A stretch of 64,000 nucleotides of DNA from Acetobacter indonesiensis (GTDB lineage: Bacteria; Pseudomonadota; Alphaproteobacteria; Acetobacterales; Acetobacteraceae). Made by a program: the position numbers and the translations under genes. The notes under the pieces are model-generated. The model was not told the origin of the DNA and did no database searches. It was given only the letters and a program-made list of their open reading frames with translations. Within the stretch, counting starts at the first letter, position 1. Each line of letters starts with the position of its first letter. This document shows, in pieces, positions 35,161 through 50,440 of the stretch. The stretch lies in assembly GCF_000963945.1 (NCBI RefSeq), contig NZ_BAMW01000002.1, positions 62,001 to 126,000 of the forward strand, in the 5' to 3' direction.

Positions 35161-35237
<77 letters not shown>

Positions 35238-35452: not shown

Positions 35453-36703
35453 CTATGACGTAAGTCGAGTGTCAGCGGCCAGAACAGCGTGCAGCAAAAC
35501 ATTTGCCCCGGCTGTTGCATCGTCCGGTTCTGCGCTTTCTGCTTCGTTATGACTGATACCCTTCCAACAGGGTACAAAAATCATGGCCGTAGGGGCCACT
35601 TTGGCCACATAGACAGCATCATGCCCCGCACCGGACACAATATCACGCATGGAATACCCTAGCGCCTGCGCACTTTCACGCACACACCCCACACACAGCG
35701 GGTCAAAATGTACGGCAGCTGAAACCCATGTGGGCGTAATCTCCATCTCCACACCGCACACTGTCGCCTGATCTTCCATACGCTGTCGGAACTCCTGCTC
35801 CATAGCCTCCAGCACATCATCATCCGGATGGCGCAGATCAACCGTAAAGCGCACTTCTCCCGGCACCACGTTGCTGCTGGCAGGAAGACAGTCAATTATG
35901 CCTACAGTCCCCAAACCATCTGGGGCGTGATCAACCGCAACCTGATGCACACCCTCAATCATGCGCGCAGCCGCCCACAATGCGTCAGACCGCATGGTCA
36001 TGGGGGTTGTACCAGCATGTGCATCCTGCCCTTTGACGCAGACAGTATACCAGCGCATGCCCTGCACACCCTGTACCACGCCAATTGTCCGCTCCTCGGC
36101 TTCAAGCACGGGGCCTTGTTCAATATGCAATTCAAAATAGGCAGCAGCCGGATGTTGGCCGCAAACTTCCGTGCCAGAAAACCCTATTTTTTCAAGCGCA
36201 TCCCCCAAGATAATGCCAGCACGATCAGACCGCCCGCGTGCAAACGCCTCGGTGAACACACCGCCAAAAACACCTGATGCCAACATGGGCGGGGTGAAAC
36301 GGGCCCCTTCCTCGTTCGTCCAGTTTACAATTTCTATCGGATGCCGTGTGGTTATGCCGGCAGTATGCAATGCCCGTAAAACCGCAATGCCACCCAATAC
36401 ACCCAGAATCCCGTCAAACTTCCCGCCTGTTGGCTGCGTATCCAGATGACTGCCAATCATGATGGGAGGAAGCGTGTTGTCTTCGCCAGCCCTGCGCGCA
36501 AACTGGTTACCCATGGAATCAAAGGTCACATCACAGCCCAACGCCGCGCAGGTCTGTGCAAACCATGTGCGTACCCGTGCATCATCATCGGACAACGCCA
36601 GACGACAAATCCCCCCTTTGGGAGTACCGCCAAACTGTGCCGTGTGCATCAGGTCCTGCCACAAAGCACCCCCATCAACCACCATATTGCTCTGTGTGAC
36701 CAT
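35453..36703 (-). CDS. M20 family Zn-dependent hydrolase (N-carbamoyl-amino acid hydrolase / allantoate amidohydrolase type)
   Basis: The 416-residue protein shows the dinuclear-metal ligands of the carbamoyl-amino-acid hydrolase branch: GSHLDTQPTGGKFDG, NWTNEEGARF, ELHIEQGPVLE and the late GAGHDA. These enzymes cleave the ureido group of N-carbamoyl-L-amino acids, ureidopropionate or allantoate, releasing ammonia and CO2. Which one is not readable. It belongs to the minus-strand arm of the amino-acid-derivative cluster, next to a hydroxyacid dehydrogenase and an amidinohydrolase-like gene, which favours a ureido or guanidino substrate. Confidence 0.9.
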   Translation of the reverse strand: MVTQSNMVVDGGALWQDLMHTAQFGGTPKGGICRLALSDDDARVRTWFAQTCAALGCDVTFDSMGNQFARRAGEDNTLPPIMIGSHLDTQPTGGKFDGILGVLGGIAVLRALHTAGITTRHPIEIVNWTNEEGARFTPPMLASGVFGGVFTEAFARGRSDRAGIILGDALEKIGFSGTEVCGQHPAAAYFELHIEQGPVLEAEERTIGVVQGVQGMRWYTVCVKGQDAHAGTTPMTMRSDALWAAARMIEGVHQVAVDHAPDGLGTVGIIDCLPASSNVVPGEVRFTVDLRHPDDDVLEAMEQEFRQRMEDQATVCGVEMEITPTWVSAAVHFDPLCVGCVRESAQALGYSMRDIVSGAGHDAVYVAKVAPTAMIFVPCWKGISHNEAESAEPDDATAGANVLLHAVLAADTRLTS

Positions 36704-36770
36704 GTCCGCCCTCTATTTCTGAAAAAAAATTGAAAATAAAAACTCTTTCCTTGTTAAAGAATTTTTTGGG

Positions 36771-37712
36771 TCAGTATCCTTTTTCCGGGTCACACAACAA
36801 AGACGGCCGTTCGCCCCGCCCCATTTGCGCGATCACATCCGCTACATATCGCGCCTGCATGGTGCGAGACGCTTCAGACGCGACATGGGGGGTAATGGTG
36901 ATGCGCGGGTGTGCCCACAAGGCTGACTCTGCTGGCAGCGGTTCCGGGGTGACAACATCCAGCACGGCACCACCGATCACGCCGTCATCCAGTGCTTGCA
37001 GCAGATCAGCCTGATTAACGTGGTCCCCACGACCCACATTGATAAACCCTGCCCCACGCGGAAGATTTCGCAAAAACGCGCTATCAACCAAGCCTCTGGT
37101 TTCAGGCGTGCTGGGTAGAAGGTTAACCAGAATATCACATTCTTTTAGAAAATCCGTTAAGCGGTCCTTACCGGAAAAAACCTTAATCCCTGCCACCTGC
37201 CCGTCTGAGCGACGCCAGCCAGAAACCTGAAAACCAACGCGGGCTAGATGGCTGGCAACCTGACTTCCTAGATGGCCTAACCCCATAACCCCTATGCGTG
37301 TTTCAGCACAGGTTCGGGCTACACCATTATAAGACCATTTATGCGTGGCCTGTTGCTGCGCCCATGTGCGTGCATCACGCAACAGCCCAATAGCCGCCCA
37401 TGTGACGTAATCTGCCATCAGACCAACCGTCTGCTCCCCGCCCATGCGCACAAGCGGCACATGCTGCGGAAAATCAGGGGAGCGCAGCAGATGGTCAACA
37501 CCTGCACCCGTGCATAAAATCGCTTTTACATCTGTTAGATTTTTGAAATGATCATCTTCCGGTTTCCACACCAGAACGTAATCATCTTGGCTGGGCTGCA
37601 CTCTGGCGTGATACCATGAACAGACGTTCAGATCAGGTGCTACATCAGCAAAAGCTTTCCGCCAGCTTTCAAATTGCTCTGCCCCATCTGCACTGACAAT
37701 CAGTCTGACCAT
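36771..37712 (-). CDS. D-2-hydroxyacid dehydrogenase (glyoxylate/hydroxypyruvate reductase A-like)
   Basis: The 313-residue protein has the NAD(P)-binding motif GLGHLG, the catalytic Arg in INVGRGDHV and the catalytic His in TPHVAS. It is nearest to GhrA in layout, with a C-terminal end CDPEKGY typical of that group. It reduces a 2-keto acid such as glyoxylate or hydroxypyruvate. GGAGG sits before the ATG at 37712. In this cluster it could handle a 2-oxo acid produced by the aldolase or the oxygenase. Confidence 0.9.
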   Translation of the reverse strand: MVRLIVSADGAEQFESWRKAFADVAPDLNVCSWYHARVQPSQDDYVLVWKPEDDHFKNLTDVKAILCTGAGVDHLLRSPDFPQHVPLVRMGGEQTVGLMADYVTWAAIGLLRDARTWAQQQATHKWSYNGVARTCAETRIGVMGLGHLGSQVASHLARVGFQVSGWRRSDGQVAGIKVFSGKDRLTDFLKECDILVNLLPSTPETRGLVDSAFLRNLPRGAGFINVGRGDHVNQADLLQALDDGVIGGAVLDVVTPEPLPAESALWAHPRITITPHVASEASRTMQARYVADVIAQMGRGERPSLLCDPEKGY

Positions 37713-37756
37713 TTTATATCCTCCACCCACTGCAACTTTTAGCCATCAAAACAGAA

Positions 37757-37789
37757 AACCCTGCCTCTTGCCACGCAAGACGCAGGGTT
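37757..37789 (-). terminator. Rho-independent terminator of the amidinohydrolase-like gene
   Basis: AACCCTGC and GCAGGGTT enclose an inner TCTTGC/GCAAGA stem around a short loop, and on the minus strand a U-rich stretch follows. It separates this gene from the downstream dehydrogenase gene, so the dehydrogenase must have readthrough or its own promoter. Confidence 0.8.
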
Positions 37790-37852
37790 GCTTTCTGGCC
37801 TACTGACAAGCCCTGCTCACCATTTTAGGGGTGCTTACTTGCCTGTTGGCCC

Positions 37853-38725
37853 TCAGGCTGGCAGCAGTGATTTTCTACGCAATGGCATGGTCATGCAATG
37901 CACACTGCCGCCCCCGCGTGAAAACTGGTTGAGTTCCGGGTCAAGCACGGTCAGCCCTTCAGCGCGAAGCATGTCATTGATGCGCACGGAATGACGGGGG
38001 CTGACAACGCGTTCCCGCCCAAGTGCCAGCACATTGCACCCCATGTCCCGCATTGCTTCCTTATAAGAAACCGGCAGCAGACGAATACCCTGCGCACGGA
38101 ACCAGTCCAGATCTTCATCCGCAATGCAATCAACAGCCGCAATTGCCAGATTTTCTGCCACCATGGTGAAAATAACATCCAGATGCAGAAAATGCTCAGG
38201 GAAGCGGATCATCCGGCATGTCCAGCCAGCTTCCTCAAACCAGCTGATGAATTCGGCAGCCCCGGCTTCATCCGTGCGGCCACCACTGACACCGACTGCC
38301 AGCAGGCCAGGGCGAATAATATGAATATCCCCGCCTTCAATATTGCCTTTGGTGCAGGTCTTCCAGATTTCATCTTCACCATAGAAAGACCGGATTTCAG
38401 CTTCCTCGCCCACACGCTCCTGACGGAACAGGCGGGTTACCACCGTGCCAAATGGCGTGGTCTGTGAACTGTCACGAGTATAGACCTGATAGGGCATACC
38501 CTCCTGCGGCTTCAGAAAATGGCAGGAAACATCTGCACCCTTCAGGGTAGAAACCAGCTCCGCAAACTGGGCGTTCAAGGCTGCACGATCAATCGTGCCT
38601 CCATTGGCCATTGTCTGGATGGCAATATCATTGCTGGGAATCCACTGATAATACTCAGGCGGGCACAGGAGTACATCAGCCAGATCACCGGTTTCGCTGT
38701 CAATAAACCACCGGTTTGCTTGCAT
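37853..38725 (-). CDS. Amidinotransferase/dimethylargininase-like hydrolase
   Basis: The 290-residue protein belongs to the guanidino-modifying superfamily (DDAH, arginine deiminase, amidinotransferase). The nucleophile C277 lies in GGGSVHCMTMPL, the catalytic His is H181 in FLHLDV, and the acid/substrate motif is E130-G-G-D. The N-terminal TRD (83-85) contacts substrate carboxylate in relatives. It should hydrolyse a guanidino group to a ureido group or an amine. The ureido product would then suit the M20 hydrolase further downstream on the same strand. Confidence 0.85.
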   Translation of the reverse strand: MQANRWFIDSETGDLADVLLCPPEYYQWIPSNDIAIQTMANGGTIDRAALNAQFAELVSTLKGADVSCHFLKPQEGMPYQVYTRDSSQTTPFGTVVTRLFRQERVGEEAEIRSFYGEDEIWKTCTKGNIEGGDIHIIRPGLLAVGVSGGRTDEAGAAEFISWFEEAGWTCRMIRFPEHFLHLDVIFTMVAENLAIAAVDCIADEDLDWFRAQGIRLLPVSYKEAMRDMGCNVLALGRERVVSPRHSVRINDMLRAEGLTVLDPELNQFSRGGGSVHCMTMPLRRKSLLPA

Positions 38726-39130
38726 TGCTGAAATCCTTAGATTGCTGAATTCTTCCTGACGGTAACGAATTTAAAACGGTTCCAAAATAAGAATAAACCG
38801 TAGTTCACTTTATAAATCTGTTAATCATCTCATCCAGCCCTCATCATAAAACCCCGTTCTGAACCCAAAACTGGCATTTTTTGGGCGCTGCCGGGGGTTC
38901 TCTACCGCACGGCCACATCGTTACACCTTCGTCTGGTGGCCCATCTGGCAATCATTCCCCTCTTGCATCTTTTTCCCATAAGCCGCAGGCTTTGGAGGGA
39001 GACAGACAGAAACCGGAGAACACACTGGCCATTTCGCTGGCAAAATAGCAGAATAAGCACGCTCGCTTTTCACTTCTTGCTCTTTGCGTTTGCCGTTTCA
39101 CTCTATGCTGCATGTTATATCTGACAAAGG
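38726..39130. promoter_or_regulatory. 405-nt divergent control region between the amidinohydrolase and LysR genes
   Basis: No gene is convincing here; a 62-codon plus frame (38936-39124) has no ribosome site. At 38776-38801 ACGGTT and AACCGT form an inverted repeat with a 14-nt gap in an AT-rich stretch, a plausible operator for the adjacent LysR regulator. Promoters for both arms should lie here. Confidence 0.5.
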
Positions 39131-40120
39131 ATGCGCCAGATCCGCATGACACGATCAACCAAAACTCCGCCAAGCCCCAAGCCTTCCGCAGGGCAGAAGC
39201 GCAGGCGTTCAAATGGCTTTCATGGTCAGGTATCAGAGGTTGATCTGCGCCTGCTGCGTGTCTTTCATACTGTTGCCGAACAAGGCGGCTTTTCCGCCGC
39301 TGAAATTGCACTGGGCAAAAGCAAATCTTCTATCAGTCTGGATATTTCTGCGCTGGAAACCCGGCTGGGCCTCAGGCTGTGTCTGCGCGGGCGAAGTGGC
39401 TTTGCCCTGACGGGGGAAGGTCGCGCCGTGCTGGAGGCAACGCAGGAATTGTTGCAGGACATCCAGCGTTTTCAGCAGCGGGTCAACCAGATTAGCGGCC
39501 TGCTCTCGGGCACATTCAAACTATACGTCCCTGACAATATTCAGACACACGGTGAAACACCGTTGGTGCGGGCCATAGAAGCGTTTACCACGCAGCACCC
39601 CAATGTGTTTCTAACCGTCCATTCCGCCTCCACCCGTGAAGTGGAAGTTGCTGTCATGAACGGGCAGGCAACTGCGGGCATAGCCCTTTATCCGCAGAAT
39701 ATGCCAGGCATCCACGGTACCCCTTTGGTGGCAGAAGCGCTGAATCTGTATTGTGGTGCGCGTCATCCGCTGTTTGCCGTGCCTGAAGACAAAATTACGG
39801 TTGAGACACTGGCTGAACAACGCATGATTGCCGTGGCGGAAGCCGCAACCTCCCCCCAGTGGGATAAAGTGCGATCACATATGTCCTATCACGCTGCGGC
39901 TGAAAATGTGGATGCCCGCGCTCTGCTGATTTTATCGGGCAATTTTATCGGGTTTCTGCCCGAAGCCTTTGCCAAACCCTTGGTAGACCGCAGCCTTCTG
40001 CGTCGCATCAGTTTCAATAATCTTCAGCTTATAACCTATTTCCATTTTCTCGCGCGCACATCTCCTGAAACAGGATTGATGGTCGAAACCTTCCGCGCCC
40101 TTCTGGAAGAGTCTTACTAA
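39131..40120 (+). CDS. LysR-family transcriptional regulator
   Basis: The 329-residue protein has an N-terminal winged HTH (about residues 37-95: VDLRLLRVFHTVAEQGGFSA, then KSKSSISLDISALE), preceded by a basic tail, and a periplasmic-binding-protein-like effector domain (about 120-325). It is at the head of the plus-strand arm, diverging from the amidinohydrolase gene, so it is the likely regulator of the whole cluster. AAAGG abuts the ATG. Its TAA overlaps an ATG (TAATG) of the transporter frame, suggesting coupling. Confidence 0.92.
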   Translation: MRQIRMTRSTKTPPSPKPSAGQKRRRSNGFHGQVSEVDLRLLRVFHTVAEQGGFSAAEIALGKSKSSISLDISALETRLGLRLCLRGRSGFALTGEGRAVLEATQELLQDIQRFQQRVNQISGLLSGTFKLYVPDNIQTHGETPLVRAIEAFTTQHPNVFLTVHSASTREVEVAVMNGQATAGIALYPQNMPGIHGTPLVAEALNLYCGARHPLFAVPEDKITVETLAEQRMIAVAEAATSPQWDKVRSHMSYHAAAENVDARALLILSGNFIGFLPEAFAKPLVDRSLLRRISFNNLQLITYFHFLARTSPETGLMVETFRALLEESY

Positions 40121-40239
40121 TGGCTTCTCTGCGCCTTTTTTCCAGGCCAGCCCTTTCATACCGCGCAACGGCGTCTGGGCGATCGGACCAGTCTTCTTCG
40201 GTATTTGGCCACCACCCACACCCTCAAGGCTTGAGGTCT

Positions 40240-41793
40240 ATGTTCCGCAAAAGTCTTCTGGCTTTTGCAATCAGTCTTGGCGTCAGCACAGCCCTACCTT
40301 TTGCCGCATCCGCGCAGGATGCTGCGGGCGATGTGCCTTCGTTTGTGCAGAACGGTACCCTGACGGTGTGTACAAACCCTACCCTTCCGCCCATGACATT
40401 TGTCAAAGGGTCTGACGCCAGCAAGCCAGAAGGGATGGATATTGACGTTGCACAAGCGCTTGCCCAGCGTTGGCATGCCAAGCTGTCGATTATTCCTATG
40501 GATTTCACGGGGTTGTTTCCCAGCTTGGGGGCACAGCGATGCGGTATGGTGTTGAGTGGCATTATTCAGCTACCTGCCCGTGAGAAGAATTTTGATGCCA
40601 TAGCCTATCAGGATACTGCCCTGACCGTTGTGGCACGCGCCAATACTGCCCCCATCACCAGCATGGCCGATCTATCCGGCAAAACCATTGCCGTGCAGTC
40701 GGGCACCAGCTACGCCACACGCATCAACCGTGAGAATGAAGCCCTGACCGCGGCGGGCAAACTGCCAATCATCATTCAGCAATACCCCACGGAAGACCAA
40801 GTGGTGCAACAGGTGCTGATTGGCCGGGTTTTTGCTTTTGTCAGTCAGGATGTTGAACTTTATTTCCGACAAAAACAGCTTCATGGAAAAGTCAGGATTA
40901 TTCTCAAACCTGATTACCCTGACTATCGACATTTTGCGGTCTATTTCCGTAAAAATGCCCAAGACCGCATAATGGTACAGACCGCCATTGCTGCACTTGA
41001 GCAAGATGGCACCTTACAGGCCTCGCGCCAGAAATGGTCTATCTCTGCTCAGTCCGAGCAGGCTCTGACACAGGATGAAAGCGCATCTTCCTTTAACTGG
41101 AGCGCCTTTTTCTCTGCATTGACTTCTCTGGCGTTTTTCAAGGGGGCCTGTATTACACTGGCTGTGGCGCTGTTATCTCACGCCATTGCCATTGTTATTT
41201 CCATCCCCATGGCTATCACCCTGAACGGACGGGGCAATTCTGTTCTCAAAGCTGTGCTGAAAACCTACGTTTCCGTGTTTCGCGGTGCGCCGACATTGTT
41301 GCAGCTTCTCTTTATCTGGAATGCCCTACCGCAATTTTTCCCTATTTTCCGGGAACAATGGTTTACCCCATTTCTGGCCACGCTCGTCGCACTGGCAATT
41401 AACGAATCAGCCTATCAGGTCGAAATCAATCGTTCCGCGCTTAGCGCCGTTGATGCCGGGCAAGAACTGGCAGCCGATGCCTTGGGCATGAACCGCAAGC
41501 AGGTTTACCGCCACGTTATTTTTCCGCAGGCACTTCGTATTGCGCTGCCCCCCACCATTAATGACTTCATCAGCCTGTTAAAAACCACGTCTCTGGCTTC
41601 CGTCATTTCCTTACAGGAACTGCTTGCCATCACGCAGGTTCAGGTTGCCCGCACCTTTGAATTTACCGAATATTACGCTGCGGCTTTGGTCTATTATCTG
41701 GCCATGGTGTTCTTTTTCCTGTTCCTGCAAAAGCGTGTTGAACGGCGTTTTTCCTGGGCAGACCGTAAGAAGGCTTCCGCCAATGCATCCTGA
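40240..41793 (+). CDS. Polar amino acid ABC transporter, fused solute-binding protein and permease
   Basis: The 517-residue protein joins a signal peptide (about 1-26), a substrate-binding domain of the GlnH/HisJ type (about 35-265) and a five-helix BPD_transp permease (about 305-500) with the EAA motif ELAADALGMNRKQVYRHVIFPQ. Fusion of these units is known in some amino-acid systems. The ATG at 40240 is preferred since it begins with a signal peptide; an upstream ATG at 40120 overlaps the LysR stop and has GGAAGAG before it. It should import a polar amino acid or derivative. Confidence 0.9.
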   Translation: MFRKSLLAFAISLGVSTALPFAASAQDAAGDVPSFVQNGTLTVCTNPTLPPMTFVKGSDASKPEGMDIDVAQALAQRWHAKLSIIPMDFTGLFPSLGAQRCGMVLSGIIQLPAREKNFDAIAYQDTALTVVARANTAPITSMADLSGKTIAVQSGTSYATRINRENEALTAAGKLPIIIQQYPTEDQVVQQVLIGRVFAFVSQDVELYFRQKQLHGKVRIILKPDYPDYRHFAVYFRKNAQDRIMVQTAIAALEQDGTLQASRQKWSISAQSEQALTQDESASSFNWSAFFSALTSLAFFKGACITLAVALLSHAIAIVISIPMAITLNGRGNSVLKAVLKTYVSVFRGAPTLLQLLFIWNALPQFFPIFREQWFTPFLATLVALAINESAYQVEINRSALSAVDAGQELAADALGMNRKQVYRHVIFPQALRIALPPTINDFISLLKTTSLASVISLQELLAITQVQVARTFEFTEYYAAALVYYLAMVFFFLFLQKRVERRFSWADRKKASANAS

Positions 41794-42568
41794 CCTTCAA
41801 CAGCCTGACGCCGCCCTCAGCGCAGCCCCATCTGAAAGCGCCATGATTTCGGTCCGGAATATGAGCAAACTTTATGGTGAGTTTGTTGCGCTTGATCGGT
41901 TGAACTTCGATGTGCAACAGGGCGAAAAAATAGTGGTGCTGGGGCCGTCTGGGTCTGGCAAATCCACCCTGATTCGTACCTTCAACAGAATTGAACCGCA
42001 TGACAGCGGCAGTATTCTGATTGATGGGAAAGTTATTGATGAAAAAACCAACCTTACCCAGCTACGCTGCATGGTGGGGATGGTGTTTCAGAACTACAAT
42101 CTGTTTCCACATCTAAGCGTGTTGGATAACTGTACTCTTGCGCCGCAGTTAGTACGCAACACCCCCAAAAAAGAAGCGGAAGACATGGCCCGCCGCTTTT
42201 TGGAGCAAGTAGGAATTCCTGAACAAGCCAACAAATATCCCATCCAGTTGTCAGGGGGCCAGCAACAGCGTGTCGCAATCGCCCGTGCCCTGTGCATGCA
42301 ACCGGAGGTGATGTTATTTGATGAACCGACTGCTGCACTGGACCCTGAAGCCATTACAGGAGTGGTCAGCATTATGAACACGCTGGCTGAACAGGGCATT
42401 ACAACGCTGTGTGTAACACACGAAATGGCGTTTAGCCGTCATATTGCTGATAAGATCATTTTCATGGATCGCGGCCGTATTCTGGAAATTACCCCACCAG
42501 AGACATTCTTCACCACCCCGCAGACTGAACGCGCGCAGGCCTTCCTTGACCAGATGATCCGCTACTAA
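41783..42568 (+). CDS. Polar amino acid ABC transporter ATP-binding protein
   Basis: The 261-residue ATPase has Walker [11 protein letters not shown]-loop, signature [15 protein letters not shown], Walker [15 protein letters not shown] and the H-loop [10 protein letters not shown], and is nearest to the GlnQ/HisP group. It overlaps the end of the fused transporter gene by 11 nt. ATG 41783 is chosen; an internal ATG at 41843 would also give a complete ATPase. Confidence 0.94.
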
Positions 42569-42662
42569 CCCTCACACACGAGCAGTATCAAAAGTAAGAT
42601 TTACAACATTTCAAACGAAATACCCGCTGGTTCATTATTAAATTGAAATGAAGTTATTACCC

Positions 42663-42680
42663 GGGCGGATGCTTCCGCCC
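42663..42680 (+). other. Perfect hairpin between the ABC ATPase and the TonB-receptor gene
   Basis: GGGCGGA and TCCGCCC pair around a TGCT tetraloop. There is no U-run after it, so it may partly block or stabilise the transcript between the transporter and receptor genes. Confidence 0.5.
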
Positions 42681-42818
42681 TCGTAAACAGGGGGTTTTCA
42701 TGACCAGCAGTTCTGTACTCACTTTCCTGGAACCGCTTTGTCCACTCCCCATCCGGTCAGCTGACCGGCTGTTTACGGCGTTCTCCCCCGTATCCTCATG
42801 GCAGCACTGGATGGCATC

Positions 42819-45134
42819 ATGACATATTTTTCGCGCCCCCAGTTTTCCTCGGCACCGCGCGTTGCCCGTAGTGTTCGGCATCGTCTGGCCATGACAGCTT
42901 TGCTGCTCGGCTCTACAACCAGCTTGCCAGCGCTGGCGGCTTCTGTAGCAACACACGGCAAACCGGCCGCGCATCCAACCGCAACCCCGGTGCACCATAC
43001 CGCACCCGTCCGTATGCGCCGCACACCGCACCACAGCACGTCCCCTGAAGATATTCAGGTTGTTCGCTCCCGCACGGCACGGTTCCATTCCCAAGCCGGC
43101 ACCGTCAATGTCATGAGCGGTCAGGAACTGCGTGAACTGCACGTAGAAAGCCCCAAGGAAATTGCCGCCTTTACGCCCGGTGTTACCGCCGTAAACGCGA
43201 CGTCTGGCAGCACGCCTATTTTCTCCATTCGTGGTGTTGGGCTGGATGACTATGTTGGCACAAACATGGGCGGCATCGGCATCTATCTGGATGGCATGTT
43301 TGCGCCCTATCCCGCGCTGTATAACGGGCAGATGCTCGACATTGAAAACGTGATTGTTGAAAAAGGCCCACAAGGTTTTGACATGGGTCGCAGCACCACG
43401 GGTGGCAGCGTCAACATTGAATCCGTCAAACCCTCTGATAAATTTGGCGGCTATCTGGACTGGGGCTACAGTAGCTACAATACCAATACCGGAAAATTTG
43501 CCGTCAACGTGCCTATTACCAAAAAAATATTCAACCGTACGGCGTTCAGCTACACTAAAGGCGATGGTTGGCAGCATGATCTGCACACAGACAAACGCTA
43601 TGGCGCGCAAGATCTGTTGGCCATTCGTAACCTGACCAAATTTGTCATTGATGACAAATCATCTCTGCTGTTGAACATTCACTACACACGCGACCGTGGC
43701 ACCCCCATGTCCCCACAGGATACGGACGGCGATGCCGTAAACGGTCTGGCAGACGGTACAATTGGTGTCGGCCCCAATGCGTATTATAACCGCGTCAATG
43801 TCGGGTCCAGCCGCGTCGGACGCAAGGAAGATGGCGGCGGTGTATCAGTCAATTACGAACATCTGTTCAATTTCGGTGTGTTTTCATCATCAACCGGTAT
43901 TGATTTCTATCGTCGCAATACGTTTGACAACTACGACGGTGAAGCCGCGCAGGTTGCCGATTACCACTGGGATGATACCTATATTGCGCAATCGCATGAC
44001 ATGCACCTGCGCACCAATATTGGAAAAATCTTTCATCTGACCGTTGGTATCTACGAATCTTATGACAAGATTGACGGCACGTACACCAGCTATCGCGCCT
44101 TCCAGTTCGGTGTTCCGCAAGCCAATCTGGCTAACCATTTCTCGCAGCAGAATCTGTCAACGGGTGTCTATGTCAACACCGTAACCAACATTACCCATAA
44201 TCTGGACTTCATTGCTGCAGGCCGGTTCTCTTACGATGAACGTGGTTTCCATGGCGGCACACGGGATGTTGACGGTATTTTCGGCGGAGTGCCGGGGGCA
44301 AACCTGTCATATTTGAACACCAGCCACAATTATCCACGGTTCACTGGCCGCGTTGGGCTGCGTTATCAGGTTGTGCCAGGCACCTATCTGTATGCCAGCA
44401 TCTCCAACGGCTACAAGGCCGGAACCTATTTTGCCGCCCCTGTTTCTGCACCGCAGGCGCTTGATTACGTCAAACCTGAAAACCTGATTGCTTACGAAGT
44501 TGGTGTGAAGTCCAGCCTGTTTAAAAACCGTCTTTCGATCGAAGGCTCTTTGTTCGATTATGAATATCATAATCGTCAAACGCTGTTCGTGGCTGAAATG
44601 CCGGGTAACACTACGTCGCTAAGCCTCGGCCCCATTTCACGCGCAAGAACACGCGGGGGGGAACTGTCATCCACCCTGCATAACATTGTGCCTAACCTCG
44701 ATCTACGCGGGTCATTTGCTTATCTGGATGCGCAGGCTATCAGCGCAGTCAACAATATTGGCGGCCTGCCGCTTCTTTCAAACGTCACGGCCCATTCCGC
44801 GTTGCCGTTCGCCCCGCGTTTCTCATGGAGCGCCGTGGCCCGCTACGGCGTAGATGTAAACCGTTATCGCGTCACATTGCAGGCCAGCTATACATGGAAA
44901 GACAACATGCTGGTGGCGTTGGGTGACCCGAATGGTAAAACCAACAAAATCAGTTCCATGGGCCTGCGTATGGAACTCTCCCCCAAAAGCAGCAAATGGA
45001 CAGCTGCCGTCTATGTTGACAACATGCTGAACAAGCACGGCAACACCTACTCCTTTACCGGCAGTGACAACAGCCGTGCACAATATCTGCAAACCCCACG
45101 TTGGGTGGGTGTTGATCTGCACTATAATTTCTGA
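42819..45134 (+). CDS. TonB-dependent outer-membrane receptor
   Basis: The 771-residue protein has a signal peptide ending about LPALAA, a plug domain (about 80-210: VMSGQELRELHVESPKEIAAFTPG, then SIRGVGLDDYVG), and a 22-strand barrel ending in HYNF, with the terminal Phe expected for outer-membrane proteins. The start at 42819 (M8 of the frame) is one option; 42798 and 42891 also exist. It sits in the amino-acid-derivative cluster, so it likely imports the same compound or a large conjugate of it across the outer membrane. Confidence 0.92.
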   Translation: MTYFSRPQFSSAPRVARSVRHRLAMTALLLGSTTSLPALAASVATHGKPAAHPTATPVHHTAPVRMRRTPHHSTSPEDIQVVRSRTARFHSQAGTVNVMSGQELRELHVESPKEIAAFTPGVTAVNATSGSTPIFSIRGVGLDDYVGTNMGGIGIYLDGMFAPYPALYNGQMLDIENVIVEKGPQGFDMGRSTTGGSVNIESVKPSDKFGGYLDWGYSSYNTNTGKFAVNVPITKKIFNRTAFSYTKGDGWQHDLHTDKRYGAQDLLAIRNLTKFVIDDKSSLLLNIHYTRDRGTPMSPQDTDGDAVNGLADGTIGVGPNAYYNRVNVGSSRVGRKEDGGGVSVNYEHLFNFGVFSSSTGIDFYRRNTFDNYDGEAAQVADYHWDDTYIAQSHDMHLRTNIGKIFHLTVGIYESYDKIDGTYTSYRAFQFGVPQANLANHFSQQNLSTGVYVNTVTNITHNLDFIAAGRFSYDERGFHGGTRDVDGIFGGVPGANLSYLNTSHNYPRFTGRVGLRYQVVPGTYLYASISNGYKAGTYFAAPVSAPQALDYVKPENLIAYEVGVKSSLFKNRLSIEGSLFDYEYHNRQTLFVAEMPGNTTSLSLGPISRARTRGGELSSTLHNIVPNLDLRGSFAYLDAQAISAVNNIGGLPLLSNVTAHSALPFAPRFSWSAVARYGVDVNRYRVTLQASYTWKDNMLVALGDPNGKTNKISSMGLRMELSPKSSKWTAAVYVDNMLNKHGNTYSFTGSDNSRAQYLQTPRWVGVDLHYNF

Positions 45135-45142
45135 CCCCTTAC

Positions 45143-45173
45143 GCTCCATGCCTGCATCCACGCGGCATGGAGC
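45143..45173 (+). other. 10-bp hairpin downstream of the TonB-receptor gene
   Basis: GCTCCATGCC (45143-45152) and GGCATGGAGC (45164-45173) form a strong stem. Only a C-rich tail follows, so it is not a clear terminator; it may set the ratio of receptor to downstream enzymes. Confidence 0.5.
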
Positions 45174-45191
45174 CCCTTTCAGGATTATCTG

Positions 45192-46037
45192 ATGCGACTG
45201 GATGTTTTTAAAACATTGTGGGGTGACTTCCGCCCCTGGACCGCTGCACTAGAAGACCTGAAACAGGCCGGTTTTACCGGTATTGAAGCCCGTATTCCGG
45301 CAACATTACAGGAAGCACAGCAGAACGCAGACATTCTGGCTGGCGAGAACATTCCCTATATCGCCATTGCCATGACGGGTGGCGGCGTCATCCCCCGCCA
45401 GTCTGCAAGTATTGAGGACCATCTGCACGATCTGCGCGCAGCACTAGAACGCGCTGCCTGCATGAAGCCGCGCTTTATTAACGTGCTGGGGGGGAACGAC
45501 CGCTGGTCTGCCACGCAACAAGCAGATTTCATTAACCGCGCCCATGCAATCGGGCAGGATATGGGGCTGTTATGCAGTTTTGAAACCCATCGTTCGCGCA
45601 TTTTGGCAACACCTTGGGTTACACTTGATGTTTTACCACATCTGTCTCCCGATGTTCTGTTTACCGCAGATATCAGCCACTGGGTTGTCAGTTGTGAACG
45701 ACTGCTGGATGATCCGCTCGACGATTTCTCCGCTTTTCTTGATCGGGTGCACCACGTTCAGGCCCGCATAGGGTATGATCAGGGGCCACAGGTGCCACAC
45801 CCTGCTGCGCCCGAACATGCTGCGGCCCTGCGTTTTCATCAGCATATCTGGGAACAGATATGGCAGGCGCAAAAAGCACGTGGCTATCAGGTCACAACAC
45901 TAACACCAGAATGTGGGCCAGATGGTTATCTGCACACTTTGCCGTTCACCAATGCCCCGATTGCCGATTTGTGGAGCCTGAATGTCTGGATAGGCCAGAC
46001 AGAGCAAGCCCATTTCAAACAGTTCATGACCCGCTGA
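45192..46037 (+). CDS. Xylose-isomerase-like TIM barrel protein (sugar phosphate isomerase/epimerase family)
   Basis: The 281-residue TIM barrel keeps the metal-binding pattern of the family: an ETHR Glu at about 136, an Asp/His in TADISHWV, a His in [13 protein letters not shown] and a late Glu in TPECGPDGY. Members isomerise or epimerise sugars, inosose or hydroxypyruvate. Substrate unknown. AGGA precedes the ATG, and it is followed closely by the oxygenase gene, so the two should act on the same compound. Confidence 0.83.
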
Positions 46038-46057
46038 CCCTTACCGGAGACACAGAC

Positions 46058-47116
46058 ATGACCGAACAGACCCCAACGGCAGAACAGACTGAAACATTCA
46101 CGTCCATCCCGGTGGTCAATATTGCCGGTTTATACAGTGAAAATCCGGAAGACCGTAAAGCCGTGGCGGAGGAACTGGGGCAGGCAGCACGCAATGTGGG
46201 CTTCCTTTATATCTCCGGCCATCAGGTTCCGGCTGATCTGATCAAGAATGTGCGCGAGGCCGCAAAGAACTTCTTTGCCCTGCCGTTTGATCAGAAAATG
46301 GAATACTACATTGGCACATCCGCAACCCACAAAGGTTTCGTACCCGAAGGGGAGGAAGTGTATGGTTCTGGCCGCCCAGACCATAAGGAAGCCTTTGACA
46401 TCGGGTTTGAAGTGCCGTCCGATAATCCACTGGTAAAAGCTGGCACACCGTTATTAGGGCCCAATAACTGGCCGACCGTGCCGGGCTTCAAGGACGCTGC
46501 ACAGGCTTACTACAAAGCCGTATTTGCTCTGGGGCGGACGCTGTTTCGGGGGTTTGCTCTGGCGCTTGATCTGCCTGAAACGTATTTTGACGATCACGCC
46601 AATTTCCCACCGTCCAAATTGCGTATGATCCACTACCCCTACGATGCGGAAGCACAGGATGCGCCGGGCATTGGGGCCCATACCGATTATGAATGCTTTA
46701 CCATCCTGCTGGCAGACCAACCGGGGCTGGAAGTCATGAACGGCCATGGTGACTGGATTGACGCCCCCCCTATTCCCGGTGCGTTTGTTGTCAACATTGG
46801 TGATATGCTTGAAGTCATGACCGCAGGGGCGTTTGTGGCCACCGCCCACCGGGTGCGCAGCGTGAAGGAAGAACGATATTCGTTTCCTCTTTTCTATGCC
46901 TGCGACTATCATACCCAGATTCGACCACTGCCTGCCTTTGCAACCGGCAATCAGGATTACGAGACCATTACCATTGGCGAGCATATGTGGGCGCAGGCAC
47001 TGCAAACCTACCAGTATCTTGCCCGCCGCGTGCAGGAGGGCACACTTTCCCTGCCTGACGGAGCACGCAAAACAGCAACCTTTGGCCATTTCAACCGGGC
47101 CAAATCCACACACTAA
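46058..47116 (+). CDS. Isopenicillin-N-synthase-family 2-oxoglutarate/Fe(II) dioxygenase
   Basis: The 352-residue protein has the DIOX_N segment ([19 protein letters not shown]) and the 2OG-FeII core: H208 and D210 in GAHTDYE, H264 in TAHRV, and the R273-x-S275 pair that holds 2-oxoglutarate. Bacterial relatives hydroxylate amino acids and other small molecules. In this cluster it is the likely first step that makes the imported compound breakable. The ATG at 46058 has GGAGA about nine bases upstream. Confidence 0.92.
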
Positions 47117-47155
47117 CCCGATTGTGGATTTTTATTGATAACAGGACGTGTTTTG

Positions 47156-47902
47156 ATGTCTCTTGCCCCTACAGCCACGACCGAACAGGAACTGCGCGAA
47201 GAACTGGCTGCCGCTTACCGCCTTATGGCGCATTTCAACATGACAGATCTGGTTTATACACACCTGTCTGTTCGTTTACCCGGTGAGCAGCATCGTTTTC
47301 TGGTCAACCCTTACGGGTTACTGTTTGAAGAAATTACAGCCAGCTCTCTGGTCATTGTCGATGCTGATGGCCAACCGAAGCAGGAAACAACATGGCCAGT
47401 TAACCCGGCTGGTTTTGTTATTCATTCTGCCATTCATCGTAGTCGGCCAGATGCAGCATGCGTCATGCATACGCACACGGTACCGGGCATGGTTGTTGCC
47501 GCACAGGATCAGAAAATCCTGCCGTTAAACCAGATGAATATTGAGTTTTATGGGGCTGTCGCTTTTCACAGTTACGAGGGCATTGCCGCAGATGACAATC
47601 TAAGCGAACGCGACCGTCTGGTGCGTGACCTTGGAACCCATTCGGCCCTTATTCTGCAAAATCATGGGCTGTTGACTGTGGGTGCGACCGTAGCGCAGGC
47701 GTTTTACCGTATGTATTATATGGAACAGGCCTGCCGTATTCAGATAGCGGCGCAGGCTACAGGCGTCCCCCTGCATATGCCATCAGAAGAAAAAATTCTT
47801 CGTACAAAAAAGCAGTTTGACGAAGATCCTGATCAGGGAAAACTTATCTGGCAGGCGCTACGGCGCAAACTGGACAGAGAGCAGCCAGATTACAAAAACT
47901 GA
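47156..47902 (+). CDS. Class II aldolase/adducin family protein
   Basis: The 248-residue protein has the metal-binding His pair in CVMHTHT and a later His in LQNHGLL, with the Glu in the SYEGIA region likely taking part. Such enzymes cleave or decarboxylate aldol-type substrates, usually phosphorylated sugars or hydroxy acids. It is the last gene of the plus-strand arm, 40 nt after the oxygenase gene. AGGA lies nine bases before the ATG. Confidence 0.88.
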   Translation: MSLAPTATTEQELREELAAAYRLMAHFNMTDLVYTHLSVRLPGEQHRFLVNPYGLLFEEITASSLVIVDADGQPKQETTWPVNPAGFVIHSAIHRSRPDAACVMHTHTVPGMVVAAQDQKILPLNQMNIEFYGAVAFHSYEGIAADDNLSERDRLVRDLGTHSALILQNHGLLTVGATVAQAFYRMYYMEQACRIQIAAQATGVPLHMPSEEKILRTKKQFDEDPDQGKLIWQALRRKLDREQPDYKN

Positions 47903-47949: not shown

Positions 47950-48477
47950 TTAGTCGCCTAGTGCAGCAGCACCCTGAAGGGCCACGGCAACAGCATGAAC
48001 TGTTGCGGCAATACGGGCCGCAGTCTGTACGGCCTCTGCACTCAAGGCTTCACGCACAATTTTTTCGTGGCTGGTGACGCACAGATCACACCCGTTGATA
48101 ACGGAGACAGCCAAAGACCACAGTTCAAAATCCGCTTTTTCGACACCGGGACGGCCAATAACGCTCATGCGCAATTGTGCTGGCATTTTTGCGTAATCAC
48201 CGCCCGCCATGTGCACAAAGCGGTAATAGATATTGTTCATACCCATGATCGCAGCAGCAGCTTTAGCAGCACTCAACGCTTCTGGGGAAAGCTTGTCGCC
48301 AAATTCTGCAACAATCGCTTTTGTGACCTCATCATTACGAGATGCAATGGCGGAGACAACAAAGGTACCAGCAAGCTGCTGCGGGGTCAGCGTGATATCA
48401 TTGGCGAGCGAGCCGAGGTTCAGCCTCAGATCCTTCGCATAGTCGGGAAGACGATCCTTCAGGGAGTCAATGGACAT
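47950..48477 (-). CDS. ahpD: Alkyl hydroperoxide reductase AhpD
   Basis: The 175-residue AhpD-fold protein has the complete catalytic set E118, C130, C133 and H137 in [20 protein letters not shown]. In M. tuberculosis, AhpD passes electrons from a lipoamide-containing adaptor to AhpC, and here the residue numbers match closely. It lies downstream of ahpC on the same strand, with a 256-nt gap that holds a hairpin. Confidence 0.92.
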
Positions 48478-48681
48478 CAGATAATCCGTATGAAAAGGGG
48501 GAGGAAAAACAGGGAAGGCGTCAGCCACCCTTTGCCAGACATTTGCCCAGCTACATCACCAGACCACGCCCCACCGCTCTTGTTCAGGGCGATACCGGCT
48601 GTCGGGTCAGACACATTGTTTGGGTTGGCCCACAAAGGCTGAATGTACGCCACAGGGAGGCATCGCCCCCTGTGGGAACAT

Positions 48682-48718
48682 CCGCCAGACCAGATCCGTT
48701 TTGGGTCTGATCTGGCGG
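48682..48718 (-). other. Interrupted 14-bp hairpin in the ahpC-ahpD gap
   Basis: CCGCCAGA pairs with TCTGGCGG, and inside AGATCC pairs with GGGTCT (one G-U). It lies 16 nt downstream of the ahpC stop and has no U-run. It could trim or protect the transcript so ahpC outweighs ahpD. Confidence 0.5.
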
Positions 48719-48733
48719 TTCGTCATCTAAAGA

Positions 48734-49276
48734 TCAGACTTTGATGAAGTCGTCACCCTGTTTCCAGTTACAGGGGCACAGTTCATCGCTCTGCAGACCG
48801 TCGAGAATACGCAGGATTTCCTGCGGGTTACGGCCAACAGACAGATCATTGACGGACACGTGGCGGATGATGCCCTGCGGATCAACCACAAAGGTTGCGC
48901 GCAGTGCCACACCAGCGTCTTTCGCCATAACGCCCGTGCCTTCGGTCAGCTCACGCTTGATGTCGGCCAGCATCGGGATCGGCAGATCCTTCAGGTCGTC
49001 GTGGTGCAAGCGCCAGTTCAGGTGAACGAACTCGCTGTCGATAGAAACGCCATAAACAACGGCATCACGGTCAGCAAAGTCTTTGGCCAGTTTGCCAAAC
49101 GCCACGATTTCAGTCGGGCAGACAAACGTGAAGTCTTTCGGCCAGAAGAAAACAATCTTCCACTTACCAGCGTCAGATTTGTCAGAAATCTGAACGAACT
49201 GGCCTTTAAGGCCTTCTGCACCACCGGGAACGGCGGTCAGATCAAAGCTTGGGAACTTATCGCCAACAGTCAGCAT
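48734..49276 (-). CDS. ahpC: Alkyl hydroperoxide reductase AhpC (typical 2-Cys peroxiredoxin)
   Basis: The 180-residue peroxiredoxin has the peroxidatic C53 in FVCPTE and a late C167-x-C169 (LCPCNW). That C-x-C end is like the M. tuberculosis AhpC partner of AhpD, rather than the enterobacterial AhpC that pairs with AhpF. No ahpF is in the window. AAGGAG lies eight bases before the ATG at 49276. The gene diverges from oxyR. Confidence 0.95.
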   Translation of the reverse strand: MLTVGDKFPSFDLTAVPGGAEGLKGQFVQISDKSDAGKWKIVFFWPKDFTFVCPTEIVAFGKLAKDFADRDAVVYGVSIDSEFVHLNWRLHHDDLKDLPIPMLADIKRELTEGTGVMAKDAGVALRATFVVDPQGIIRHVSVNDLSVGRNPQEILRILDGLQSDELCPCNWKQGDDFIKV

Positions 49277-49327
49277 AAGCTTGCTCCTTGTTATTGGGCA
49301 CATGCTACAACGGCACACAGGCACCGC

Positions 49328-49420
49328 TGTCTGGACAGTATGTATGGCGCGACACGTCCATTCATGCCAATGAATATTTTATATTAAAACAATCGGAATG
49401 ATCGATTAACCGTCCAGACA
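49328..49420. promoter_or_regulatory. ahpC/oxyR divergent control region
   Basis: The 207-nt gap contains an AATCG-N7-CGATT inverted repeat (49391-49407), which also fits the T-N11-A pattern of LysR-type sites, next to an AT-rich stretch. It is bracketed by a 9-bp inverted repeat TGTCTGGAC (49328-49336) and GTCCAGACA (49412-49420). OxyR binding here is inferred. Confidence 0.5.
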
Positions 49421-49483
49421 CTGTGCCCTAAAACAGAATCATGCCTACCGCGCCCTAGCCAGCCATAAACCGTAAGGTCTGCC

Positions 49484-50440
49484 ATGCTTCCTCTGCCATC
49501 AGCCCAGCAGCTTCGTTATCTTATCGCGCTGTCAGAACTACGCCATTTCGGGCGGGCGGCGGCAGCCTGTGCAGTAACCCAATCGACCCTGTCAGCAGGG
49601 ATTATGGCGCTTGAACGCCAGCTTGATGCGCAATTGCTTGATCGCACAGTGGGTAAGAAAGTTGTTTTTACCCCACTGGGGCACGAAATCGCGCAAAAAG
49701 GGCGGCAGGCGTTAGAAGCACTGGAAGCCGTGCCCCAACTGGCTGCTGCGGCGCGCACCCCCCTGACCGGCCCCATGCGGATTGGCATTATTCCCACCAT
49801 TGGCCCGTTTCTGATCGAACCGCTGGTCAAGATCATCCGCGCACGTTTTCCACAGATTGTTCTGTCATTGACGGAAGACACAACTGAGCATCTGCTTGAA
49901 AAACTGTCTCTTGGCCGGTTGGACATGCTGGTTCTGGCCATGCCATGCCTGTGTGATGGCACGGAAACCCTGCCCCTGTGGCGTGACCCATTTCAGGTTA
50001 TCATGCCTGACAACCACCCGCTGGGAAAACTGGCCCATGTGCCGGTAGAACGGCTGGAAGACCAGCAGATGGTCATGATGGAAGATGGCCACTGCCTGCG
50101 TGAACAGACTCTGGCAGTGTGCCGTCAGGGCCGAAGCTGGGATAGTTCGGACGGAGAAGGCGACTCCACATTCACCGCTACATCCCTACACACCATGGTC
50201 GATATGGTTGAACTTGGCCTTGGCATTGGGGTTGTGCCGTCACTCGCCATAGAAAACGGGCTGCTGGAAAACCATAATGTAAAGGCCCGTCCTTTATCTG
50301 GCGGCCCTGTGTGGCGCACAATCGGGCTGGCCTGGCGGCCACGCTCACCCCGCTCGGCTGATTTCCAGACCCTGGCAAAAGCGTTTGACACTCTTGCCCC
50401 TACTGCTCAGGCTACGCGGGTGGCCGATAGTTCGCTTTGA
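49484..50440 (+). CDS. oxyR: Hydrogen-peroxide-inducible genes activator OxyR
   Basis: The 318-residue LysR-type regulator has an N-terminal HTH (about 1-65) and the OxyR peroxide switch C204 and C213, in GHCLREQ and AVC, spaced by nine residues as in E. coli OxyR (C199/C208). It also keeps the GLGIGVVPSLA segment. It diverges from ahpC, its likely target. AAGG lies before the ATG. Confidence 0.94.
   Translation: MLPLPSAQQLRYLIALSELRHFGRAAAACAVTQSTLSAGIMALERQLDAQLLDRTVGKKVVFTPLGHEIAQKGRQALEALEAVPQLAAAARTPLTGPMRIGIIPTIGPFLIEPLVKIIRARFPQIVLSLTEDTTEHLLEKLSLGRLDMLVLAMPCLCDGTETLPLWRDPFQVIMPDNHPLGKLAHVPVERLEDQQMVMMEDGHCLREQTLAVCRQGRSWDSSDGEGDSTFTATSLHTMVDMVELGLGIGVVPSLAIENGLLENHNVKARPLSGGPVWRTIGLAWRPRSPRSADFQTLAKAFDTLAPTAQATRVADSSL

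Follow-up and report, generated by a model that had tools for sequence, protein, structure and literature searches.

Between positions 35,453 and 47,902 of a 64,000-nucleotide stretch of the Acetobacter indonesiensis genome (hereafter the window; contig NZ_BAMW01000002.1, positions 62,001 to 126,000), ten genes are arranged in two arms flanking a LysR-type regulator gene, as judged from open frames and Pfam matches above cut-off (table 1). They encode an amino-acid ABC importer, a TonB-dependent receptor, and a series of enzymes that includes a guanidino-acid hydrolase of the arginine deiminase (ADI)/DDAH superfamily (hereafter the DDAH-like protein) and a protein with the class II aldolase fold (hereafter the "aldolase"). 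The original prediction, made on this same stretch of DNA, had named these genes and their two-armed layout, all of which we recovered as open frames of the families it gave, and had read them as a joint system for the uptake and breakdown of a guanidino or ureido amino-acid derivative, an interpretation that the present analysis supports in part. The catalytic and metal-binding residues checked in the cluster enzymes are conserved across orthologues, with rare exceptions.

Table 1. Genes and features of the cluster, in window coordinates
Feature	Position	Strand	Evidence
M20 Zn hydrolase, hydantoinase/carbamoylase type (N-carbamoyl-amino-acid hydrolase)	35453-36703	-	Pfam, TIGR01879
GhrA-like D-2-hydroxyacid dehydrogenase (2HADH)	36771-37730	-	PF02826 156.5 bits
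Guanidino-acid hydrolase, ADI/DDAH superfamily (DDAH-like)	37853-38725	-	PF02274 87 bits, PF19420 63.5 bits
Conserved stretch between the divergent DDAH-like and LysR genes, possible operator/promoter	~38781-38832	.	alignment of 7 Acetobacter; bounds approximate
LysR-type regulator	39131-40120	+	PF03466, PF00126
Fused SBP_bac_3 and permease, amino-acid ABC importer	start 40120 or 40240, end 41793	+	PF00497, PF00528
ABC importer ATPase, GlnQ-like	~41783-42568	+	PF00005 132 bits
TonB-dependent receptor (optional module)	42798-45134	+	PF00593, PF07715
AP_endonuc_2 TIM barrel, sugar isomerase/epimerase-like (optional module)	45192-46037	+	PF01261 37.1 bits
Isopenicillin-N-synthase (IPNS)-like Fe(II)/2-oxoglutarate oxygenase (optional module)	~46058-47116	+	PF14226, PF03171
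Class-II-aldolase-fold protein ("aldolase"), proposed Fe-dependent oxidative decarboxylase of a 2-hydroxy/2-oxo acid	start 47135 or 47156, end 47902	+	class II aldolase/adducin Pfam

Co-occurrence and linkage of the cluster genes

We profiled the cluster proteins across 249 sampled Acetobacteraceae genomes, in which carriers numbered 71 for the DDAH-like protein (E<=1e-30), 26 for the importer (E<=1e-80), 30 for the oxygenase (E<=1e-60), 121 for the "aldolase" (E<=1e-70), and 169 for the M20 hydrolase (E<=1e-120). At higher identity, the DDAH-like protein (at least 69%) and the fused importer (at least 59%) were found in the identical 22 genomes, four further importer matches (45-47%) being excluded from this set. 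The "aldolase" (at least 64%) is present in all 22, and the oxygenase (at least 70%) in 11 genomes, all among the 22. The overlap spans eight genera and has a hypergeometric value of 5.6e-32 which, like all co-occurrence probabilities computed here, disregards phylogeny and is thus no true probability. Within these genomes, the DDAH-like and importer genes lie at most 5 kb apart in 17 cases, and on different contigs or more than 1 Mb apart in the other 5. As for the window's own genus, two of the six sampled genomes carry the DDAH-like protein, the importer, and the "aldolase", and four carry none of the three at the cut-offs used. The original prediction had called for such a comparison of neighborhoods, considering that the unit would be accidental if relatives carried its genes at unrelated sites with no co-occurrence; this is not the pattern observed.

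The association between the DDAH-like protein and the "aldolase" extends beyond this set. When all 71 genomes with a DDAH-like match at E<=1e-30 are compared with the 76 of 249 that carry the "aldolase" at 64% identity or more, 63 genomes have both, eight have the DDAH-like protein without the "aldolase", and 13 the reverse. Outside the 22, the "aldolase" is thus found in 41 of the 49 DDAH-like genomes, against 54 carriers in 227, and since the two genes sit on different contigs or more than 40 kb apart in all 41, plain linkage does not explain their co-occurrence. Among 337 genomes sampled across the class, the DDAH-like protein was detected in 16 (E<=1e-50) and the "aldolase" in 2 (E<=1e-85), both occurring together only in the window's own genome; to judge from these matches, the pairing is confined to Acetobacteraceae at the cut-offs used. 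Overall, these distributions indicate that the importer, the DDAH-like protein, and the "aldolase" are inherited together and that their neighborhood is not accidental. As a side observation, the homologs of the fused importer in loci L110 and L111 (45-47%) are encoded by two frames, one for the binding protein and one for the permease, with no DDAH-like match in the fetched stretch.

To look at gene neighborhoods, one genome per species with a DDAH-like protein was scanned, which yielded 63 loci, 51 of them from acetic acid bacteria (L031-L076, L081, L082, L090-L092), and all window proteins were mapped onto these by tblastn, some gene calls in the loci being imperfect. Counting unbroken frames that cover at least 80% of the query at 49% identity or more, and with some absences reflecting contig or locus ends, the DDAH-like gene is linked to the fused importer in 42 of the 51 loci, to the "aldolase" in 37, to the TIM barrel in 32, to 2HADH in 25, and to M20 in 17. 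The Fe/2-oxoglutarate oxygenase is present in all 32 TIM-barrel loci (ending at the locus edge in three and split into two pieces in one). Eight loci (L046, L052, L057, L066, L069, L070, L090, L091) keep the DDAH-like gene, the importer, and the "aldolase" without the TIM barrel and the oxygenase. The TonB receptor occupies the same position in many loci; in L031 and L032, a receptor of 49% identity is found instead on the far side of the "aldolase".

The arrangement itself varies between genera. The closest relatives of the window's DDAH-like gene are those of A. senegalensis and A. tropicalis (95% identity). In Komagataeibacter (L038-L041), the DDAH-like, M20, TIM-barrel, oxygenase, and "aldolase" genes all lie on one strand, and the smaller Novacetimonas set consists of the importer, LysR, DDAH-like, aminotransferase, and "aldolase" genes. 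That gene order is shuffled while membership is kept argues for joint selection and, together with the co-occurrence, bears out the originally predicted joint unit. The core would consist of the importer, the DDAH-like protein, and the "aldolase", often accompanied by 2HADH, with M20 as an optional member and the TonB receptor, TIM barrel, and oxygenase as an optional module. Other enzymes join in places: an aminotransferase adjoins the DDAH-like gene in Novacetimonas (L066), in Caenispirillum (L087), and in L119 (60% identical to the Caenispirillum protein), and in A. oeni (L037) a gamma-aminobutyrate (GABA) transaminase takes the M20 position (TIGR00700, 541.9 bits against a cut-off of 506.65). 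An Amidohydro_3 protein in A. nitrogenifigens relatives and an Amidohydro_1 protein in Novacetimonas lie in or near the cluster, and may or may not stand in for M20.

Several individual loci deserve separate mention. In L101 (5470-18300, Gluconacetobacter group), a TauD-type dioxygenase, a TonB receptor-like frame, an MFS transporter, a GFO/IDH/MocA oxidoreductase, and a luciferase-like monooxygenase lie between the "aldolase" and the oxygenase, with no TIM-barrel match, making this an alternative form of the optional module. In the Komagataeibacter locus L040 (9185-9949), M20 and the TIM barrel are separated by an oppositely oriented gene with an NYN/OST-HTH domain. The Voltage_CLC, Nramp, RNase E/G, NYN, and glycosyltransferase genes beside some loci differ between groups and were judged unrelated. 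More distant DDAH-like genes (50-52%) are found in L085 and L086 directly 3' of an aspartate-semialdehyde dehydrogenase-type gene, called in L085 by its model (515.0 against 223) and in L086 by clustering only.

A second, independent arrangement, SBP_bac_8 - 2HADH - "aldolase" - PotA - PotB - PotC with a divergent FAD amino-acid oxidase (DAO) gene, houses the "aldolase" in Acetobacteraceae other than the acetic acid genera; it is fullest in L098, L105, and L109. Partners were counted on 10 hand-chosen "aldolase" loci, when 54 noncore genomes carry this protein at 64% identity or more. In the eight family loci at that identity, a 2HADH homolog (41-46%) is directly adjacent in 7, PotA in 6, and DAO nearby in 6, and two of these loci (L107, L109) encode an ADI-family protein that has the guanidino residues; a 49% paralog (L112) and a locus outside the family (L133) have none of these partners, so that the counts over all 10 are 7, 6, 6, and 2. 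That a different importer adjoins the same enzymes supports the idea that these enzymes act together. The ADI-family paralogs of L107 (14411-15595) and L109 (13883-14893), 28-29% identical to the window protein, lie 3' of the PotABC-"aldolase" cluster and have the guanidino-binding Asp pair and the Glu/His/Cys. In L104, L106, and L099, the DDAH-like gene stands beside an HpcH/HpaI aldolase-family gene or clustered homolog and an MFS transporter or homolog, with, in L104 and L106, a GlcD-like FAD 2-hydroxyacid dehydrogenase or homolog nearby.

Outside the family, Pot-type importers are found near DDAH-like genes in L118 (same record as L080), L120, and L131, and an omega-aminotransferase AptA (756.1 against 500) lies 2.4 kb from that of L124. 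Distant "aldolase" homologs occur near DDAH-like genes in L122 and L123 (30-32%) and in L128 (45%); the L122 neighborhood also has a phosphofructokinase, so this case may be incidental. None of the partners was found near the DDAH-like gene of L121, L125, L129, or L132, apart from a ureohydrolase-like gene some 5 kb away in L125.

Around the window cluster itself, a tRNA-Asp gene (35161-35237) adjoins the left arm, and GC content over 34-50 kb is 0.519-0.539 in 2-kb steps, slightly below most of the window. To the right (47950-50440) are AhpD (CMD)-, AhpC-, and LysR/OxyR-looking frames, named by eye from the frame list. Among 7 Acetobacter, a block of about 40-50 bp lying 5' of the DDAH-like gene is strongly conserved when most of the remaining intergenic sequence is not, which makes it a possible operator or promoter; no palindrome of the T-N11-A LysR-box type is common to 33 intergenic regions, the block being conserved in the 7 Acetobacter only.

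Predicted activities of the cluster proteins

In the DDAH-like protein, D85, R104, E130, R150, and C277 are found in 65 of 65 sequences, and H181 and D183 in 64 (one gap). These include the catalytic Glu/His/Cys of guanidino-modifying hydrolases of the superfamily (E130, H181, C277) and both substrate-binding Asp (D85 of xTRD, D183 of HLD), and the two conserved Arg match, in the aligned P. aeruginosa DDAH, residues that we take to bind the substrate carboxylate. A plain arginine deiminase in ordinary arginine use, with the remainder of the cluster loosely associated, would likewise keep the catalytic residues checked and the two Arg (DDAH numbering by alignment). This explanation is decidedly improbable: the ADI, DDAH, and ArgZ cut-offs are all missed widely (44-74 bits against 300-1025 over seven curated NCBIfam DDAH, ADI, and arginine dihydrolase models), and the co-occurrence with the importer and the "aldolase" is too tight for an incidental association. 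Arginase, the one arginine route searched for in the window's genome, gave a single arginase-family match of 60 bits on another contig. With regard to the substrate, the relevant passages of PMC9007349 describe Asn at both substrate-binding Asp positions in the citrullinase CtlX, a difference that separates guanidino from ureido substrates. Asp at both positions points to a guanidino carboxylic acid as the most likely substrate of the DDAH-like protein, making the action on a guanidino acid originally predicted for this central enzyme very likely; a citrullinase reading of the gene is rejected on account of the same pair.

The "aldolase", a member of the PRK07044 subfamily, departs further from its annotation. 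It keeps three His, while none of 51 sequences, whichever of three alignment settings is used, has the catalytic Glu73 or Tyr113 of FucA, and among the FucA substrate-binding residues Asn29, Thr43, Gly44, Ser71, and Ser72, only Gly44 is retained. The iron oxygenases NovR, TqaM, and pyruvic oxime dioxygenase (POD) are among its nearest characterized folds, with sequence similarities of 96.4, 95.1, and 63.9 bits, respectively (24-29% identity to NovR/TqaM), and a vN..GF.iHs-type motif is common to the "aldolase" and TqaM. As in NovR, TqaM, and POD, the His triad is thus carried on an aldolase II fold devoid of the FucA catalytic residues, the absence of Glu73 and Tyr113 being the criterion used in the comparison of POD with FucA, where the authors describe spatial replacements (passages of PMC11841055). 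NovR and TqaM are presented as non-heme iron oxidative decarboxylases in the corresponding passages of PMC13111500 and PMC12192607. Given the missing catalytic residues and these neighboring folds, the aldol-type cleavage originally proposed is not supported, and we infer that the "aldolase" is a three-His iron oxygenase of the NovR/TqaM type.

This bears directly on the order of steps first envisaged, in which the oxygenase would hydroxylate a guanidino amino acid, the "aldolase" cleave the product, the DDAH-like enzyme form a ureido compound, and M20 hydrolyze it. The contiguity of the TIM-barrel, oxygenase, and "aldolase" genes in full clusters would suit such an order, as would the HpcH/HpaI-type gene (a 2-oxo-acid aldolase family) divergent from the DDAH-like gene in L106, with a clustered homolog in L099 and L104. 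However, besides the residues lacking in the "aldolase", 8 of the 51 loci keep the DDAH-like, importer, and "aldolase" genes without the oxygenase module (the TIM barrel being found in 32 of 51), and this hydroxylation-first scheme appears doubtful and, as a whole, distinctly unlikely. Alternatively, the "aldolase" could be a POD-type enzyme, and the cluster would then serve to liberate nitrite from an oxime or an N-hydroxy compound; with POD scoring below NovR and TqaM, and no N-hydroxylating enzyme recognized in the window cluster among Pfam/NCBIfam matches, this is very improbable.

As for M20, the protein exceeds the TIGR01879 cut-off (440.9 against 204 bits), keeps H86, D88, D97, E131, E132, H193, H229, N278, and R291 in 19 of 19 sequences, and has the N-carbamoyl-beta-alanine amidohydrolase 8c46 (2.7e-117) ahead of AllC/ureidoglycolate hydrolases among its PDB relatives. 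It falls below the AllC equivalog TIGR03176 (257.8 against 597.75), and an allantoin/ureidoglycolate route relying on M20 and GhrA was set aside on the grounds of this missed cut-off and of the closer carbamoylases. The predicted ureido hydrolysis is supported for the part of the loci that encode an N-carbamoyl-amino-acid-type hydrolase (the M20 loci) and is not universal. 2HADH scores 209.5 bits with the GhrA model, below its cut-off of 403, with R234, E263, and H282 in 33, 32, and 33 of 33 sequences.

In the importer, PF00497 and PF00528 are fused (81-306 and 362-545 of a 557-aa frame), and R114 and D204 of the substrate-binding part are present in 46 of 46 sequences; in a MAFFT alignment with HisJ, R114 aligns with the Arg, and D204 stands one column off the Asp, both of which presumably contact the alpha-amino-acid ligand. 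The ATPase scores 273.2 bits with the GlnQ model (cut-off 379). In the optional module, the TIM barrel keeps E131, D160, H188, and E240 in 33 of 33 sequences; its predicted model (pLDDT 85.4) has UlaE 3cqj as best fold match listed (E 3.8e-8, 13% identity), the best 50 Foldseek matches being mostly generic sugar isomerases/epimerases and relatives, and no PDB sequence match was found at 0.01, so no reaction is assigned. The oxygenase has 9ovh (2.2e-66) and 6jyv (7.3e-57) as nearest solved structures and displays the HxD...H and RxS motifs (H209, D211, H265, and R274 in 31 of 31 sequences, S276 in 30).

A possible oxidative route and its known counterparts

On this basis, we tentatively propose, as a reading that falls slightly short of an even chance, that the cluster encodes a conserved system for the aerobic breakdown of arginine or of a closely analogous guanidino alpha-amino acid. 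The amino acid would be imported by the ABC importer and lose its alpha-amino group to give a 2-oxo acid, through an aminotransferase or FAD amino-acid oxidase such as those linked in relatives though not in this window. The GhrA-like dehydrogenase could then reduce the 2-oxo acid to a D-2-hydroxy acid, from which the "aldolase" would, with O2, remove the carboxyl carbon as CO2, leaving an omega-guanidino acid one carbon shorter (4-guanidinobutyrate in the case of arginine). The DDAH-like enzyme would convert this into an omega-ureido acid, although deimination may come earlier, and M20 or another hydrolase would release an omega-amino acid (GABA or beta-alanine). The GABA transaminase at the A. 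oeni M20 position, the aminotransferase and DAO genes, the dehydrogenase, and the hydrolases are together consistent with such a single route. Two points weaken it: Asn46 occupies the HisJ/ArgT Asp11 side-chain position in 46 of 46 binding proteins, so the side chain of the ligand may not be strongly cationic, and the role given to the TonB receptor, TIM barrel, and oxygenase, that of an optional first stage dealing with a larger or modified substrate, is a guess.

The specific chemistry is a bolder claim, and a somewhat unlikely one: that 2HADH and an aldolase-fold iron oxygenase shorten an arginine-type skeleton by one carbon with O2, that a DDAH-type hydrolase and then a carbamoylase replace urea-releasing ureohydrolases, and that the NovR/TqaM fold has a role in primary metabolism. 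Were deimination the first step, a citrulline-type acid would be transaminated and undergo a NovR-like double oxidative decarboxylation to 3-ureidopropionate, which M20 would turn into beta-alanine. According to passages of PMC13111500, NovR/CloR decarboxylates a 2-oxo acid twice in succession; N-carbamoyl-beta-alanine amidohydrolase is among the M20 relatives, an AptA-type omega-aminotransferase lies near one DDAH-like gene, and an importer adjoins the DDAH-like gene in Hyphomicrobiales (L079; L118). This order leaves the dehydrogenase beside the "aldolase" in 7 of 8 loci unexplained, and we regard it as unlikely. If the proposed oxidative route were true, it would give a function to PRK07044 genes hidden under the "class II aldolase" annotation in many genomes, and would mean that acetic acid bacteria have a further, aerobic means of exploiting guanidino nitrogen. 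Whatever the exact substrate, the co-inherited core is a defined assay target, and the role of the aldolase-fold proteins becomes testable with a few purified enzymes. In keeping with the original statement that no named pathway has this exact set, neither a description of it nor laboratory data on it were found among the matches listed in the open-licence PMC literature, and it may have been published elsewhere.

The Pseudomonas arginine transaminase route proceeds via 2-ketoarginine and 4-guanidinobutyrate, and the same 4-guanidinobutyrate- and GABA-level intermediates would be expected here; the proposed route differs in relying on a dehydrogenase and an iron oxygenase for decarboxylation, and on a DDAH-type hydrolase and M20 where the Pseudomonas route has a urea-releasing guanidinobutyrase. 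DDAH, arginine deiminase, and arginine dihydrolase share with the window protein the catalytic Glu-His-Cys, the two guanidino-binding Asp, and the two carboxylate-binding Arg, whereas that protein scores below every reported curated cut-off and belongs to an importer/dehydrogenase/aldolase-fold cluster. The window M20 falls in the same hydantoinase/carbamoylase subfamily as N-carbamoyl-beta-alanine and N-carbamoyl-L-amino-acid hydrolases, the missed AllC cut-off setting it apart from that enzyme, and the window oxygenase is related to ethylene-forming enzyme by similarity only. CtlX, a putative citrullinase in the passages cited above (PMC9007349), is of the same superfamily as the DDAH-like protein, with Asn/Asn where the latter has Asp/Asp. 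POD, as described in parts of PMC5216522 and PMC11841055, has a three-His iron site, as predicted for the window protein, together with the aldolase fold, and likewise lacks Glu73 and Tyr113 in sequence; it differs by its lower similarity to the window protein and by its oxime substrate. Finally, NovR/CloR and TqaM resemble the "aldolase" in fold, in the three His, in the TqaM motif, and in the lack of FucA catalytic residues, but these are biosynthetic enzymes, when the window protein lies in a catabolic-looking cluster.

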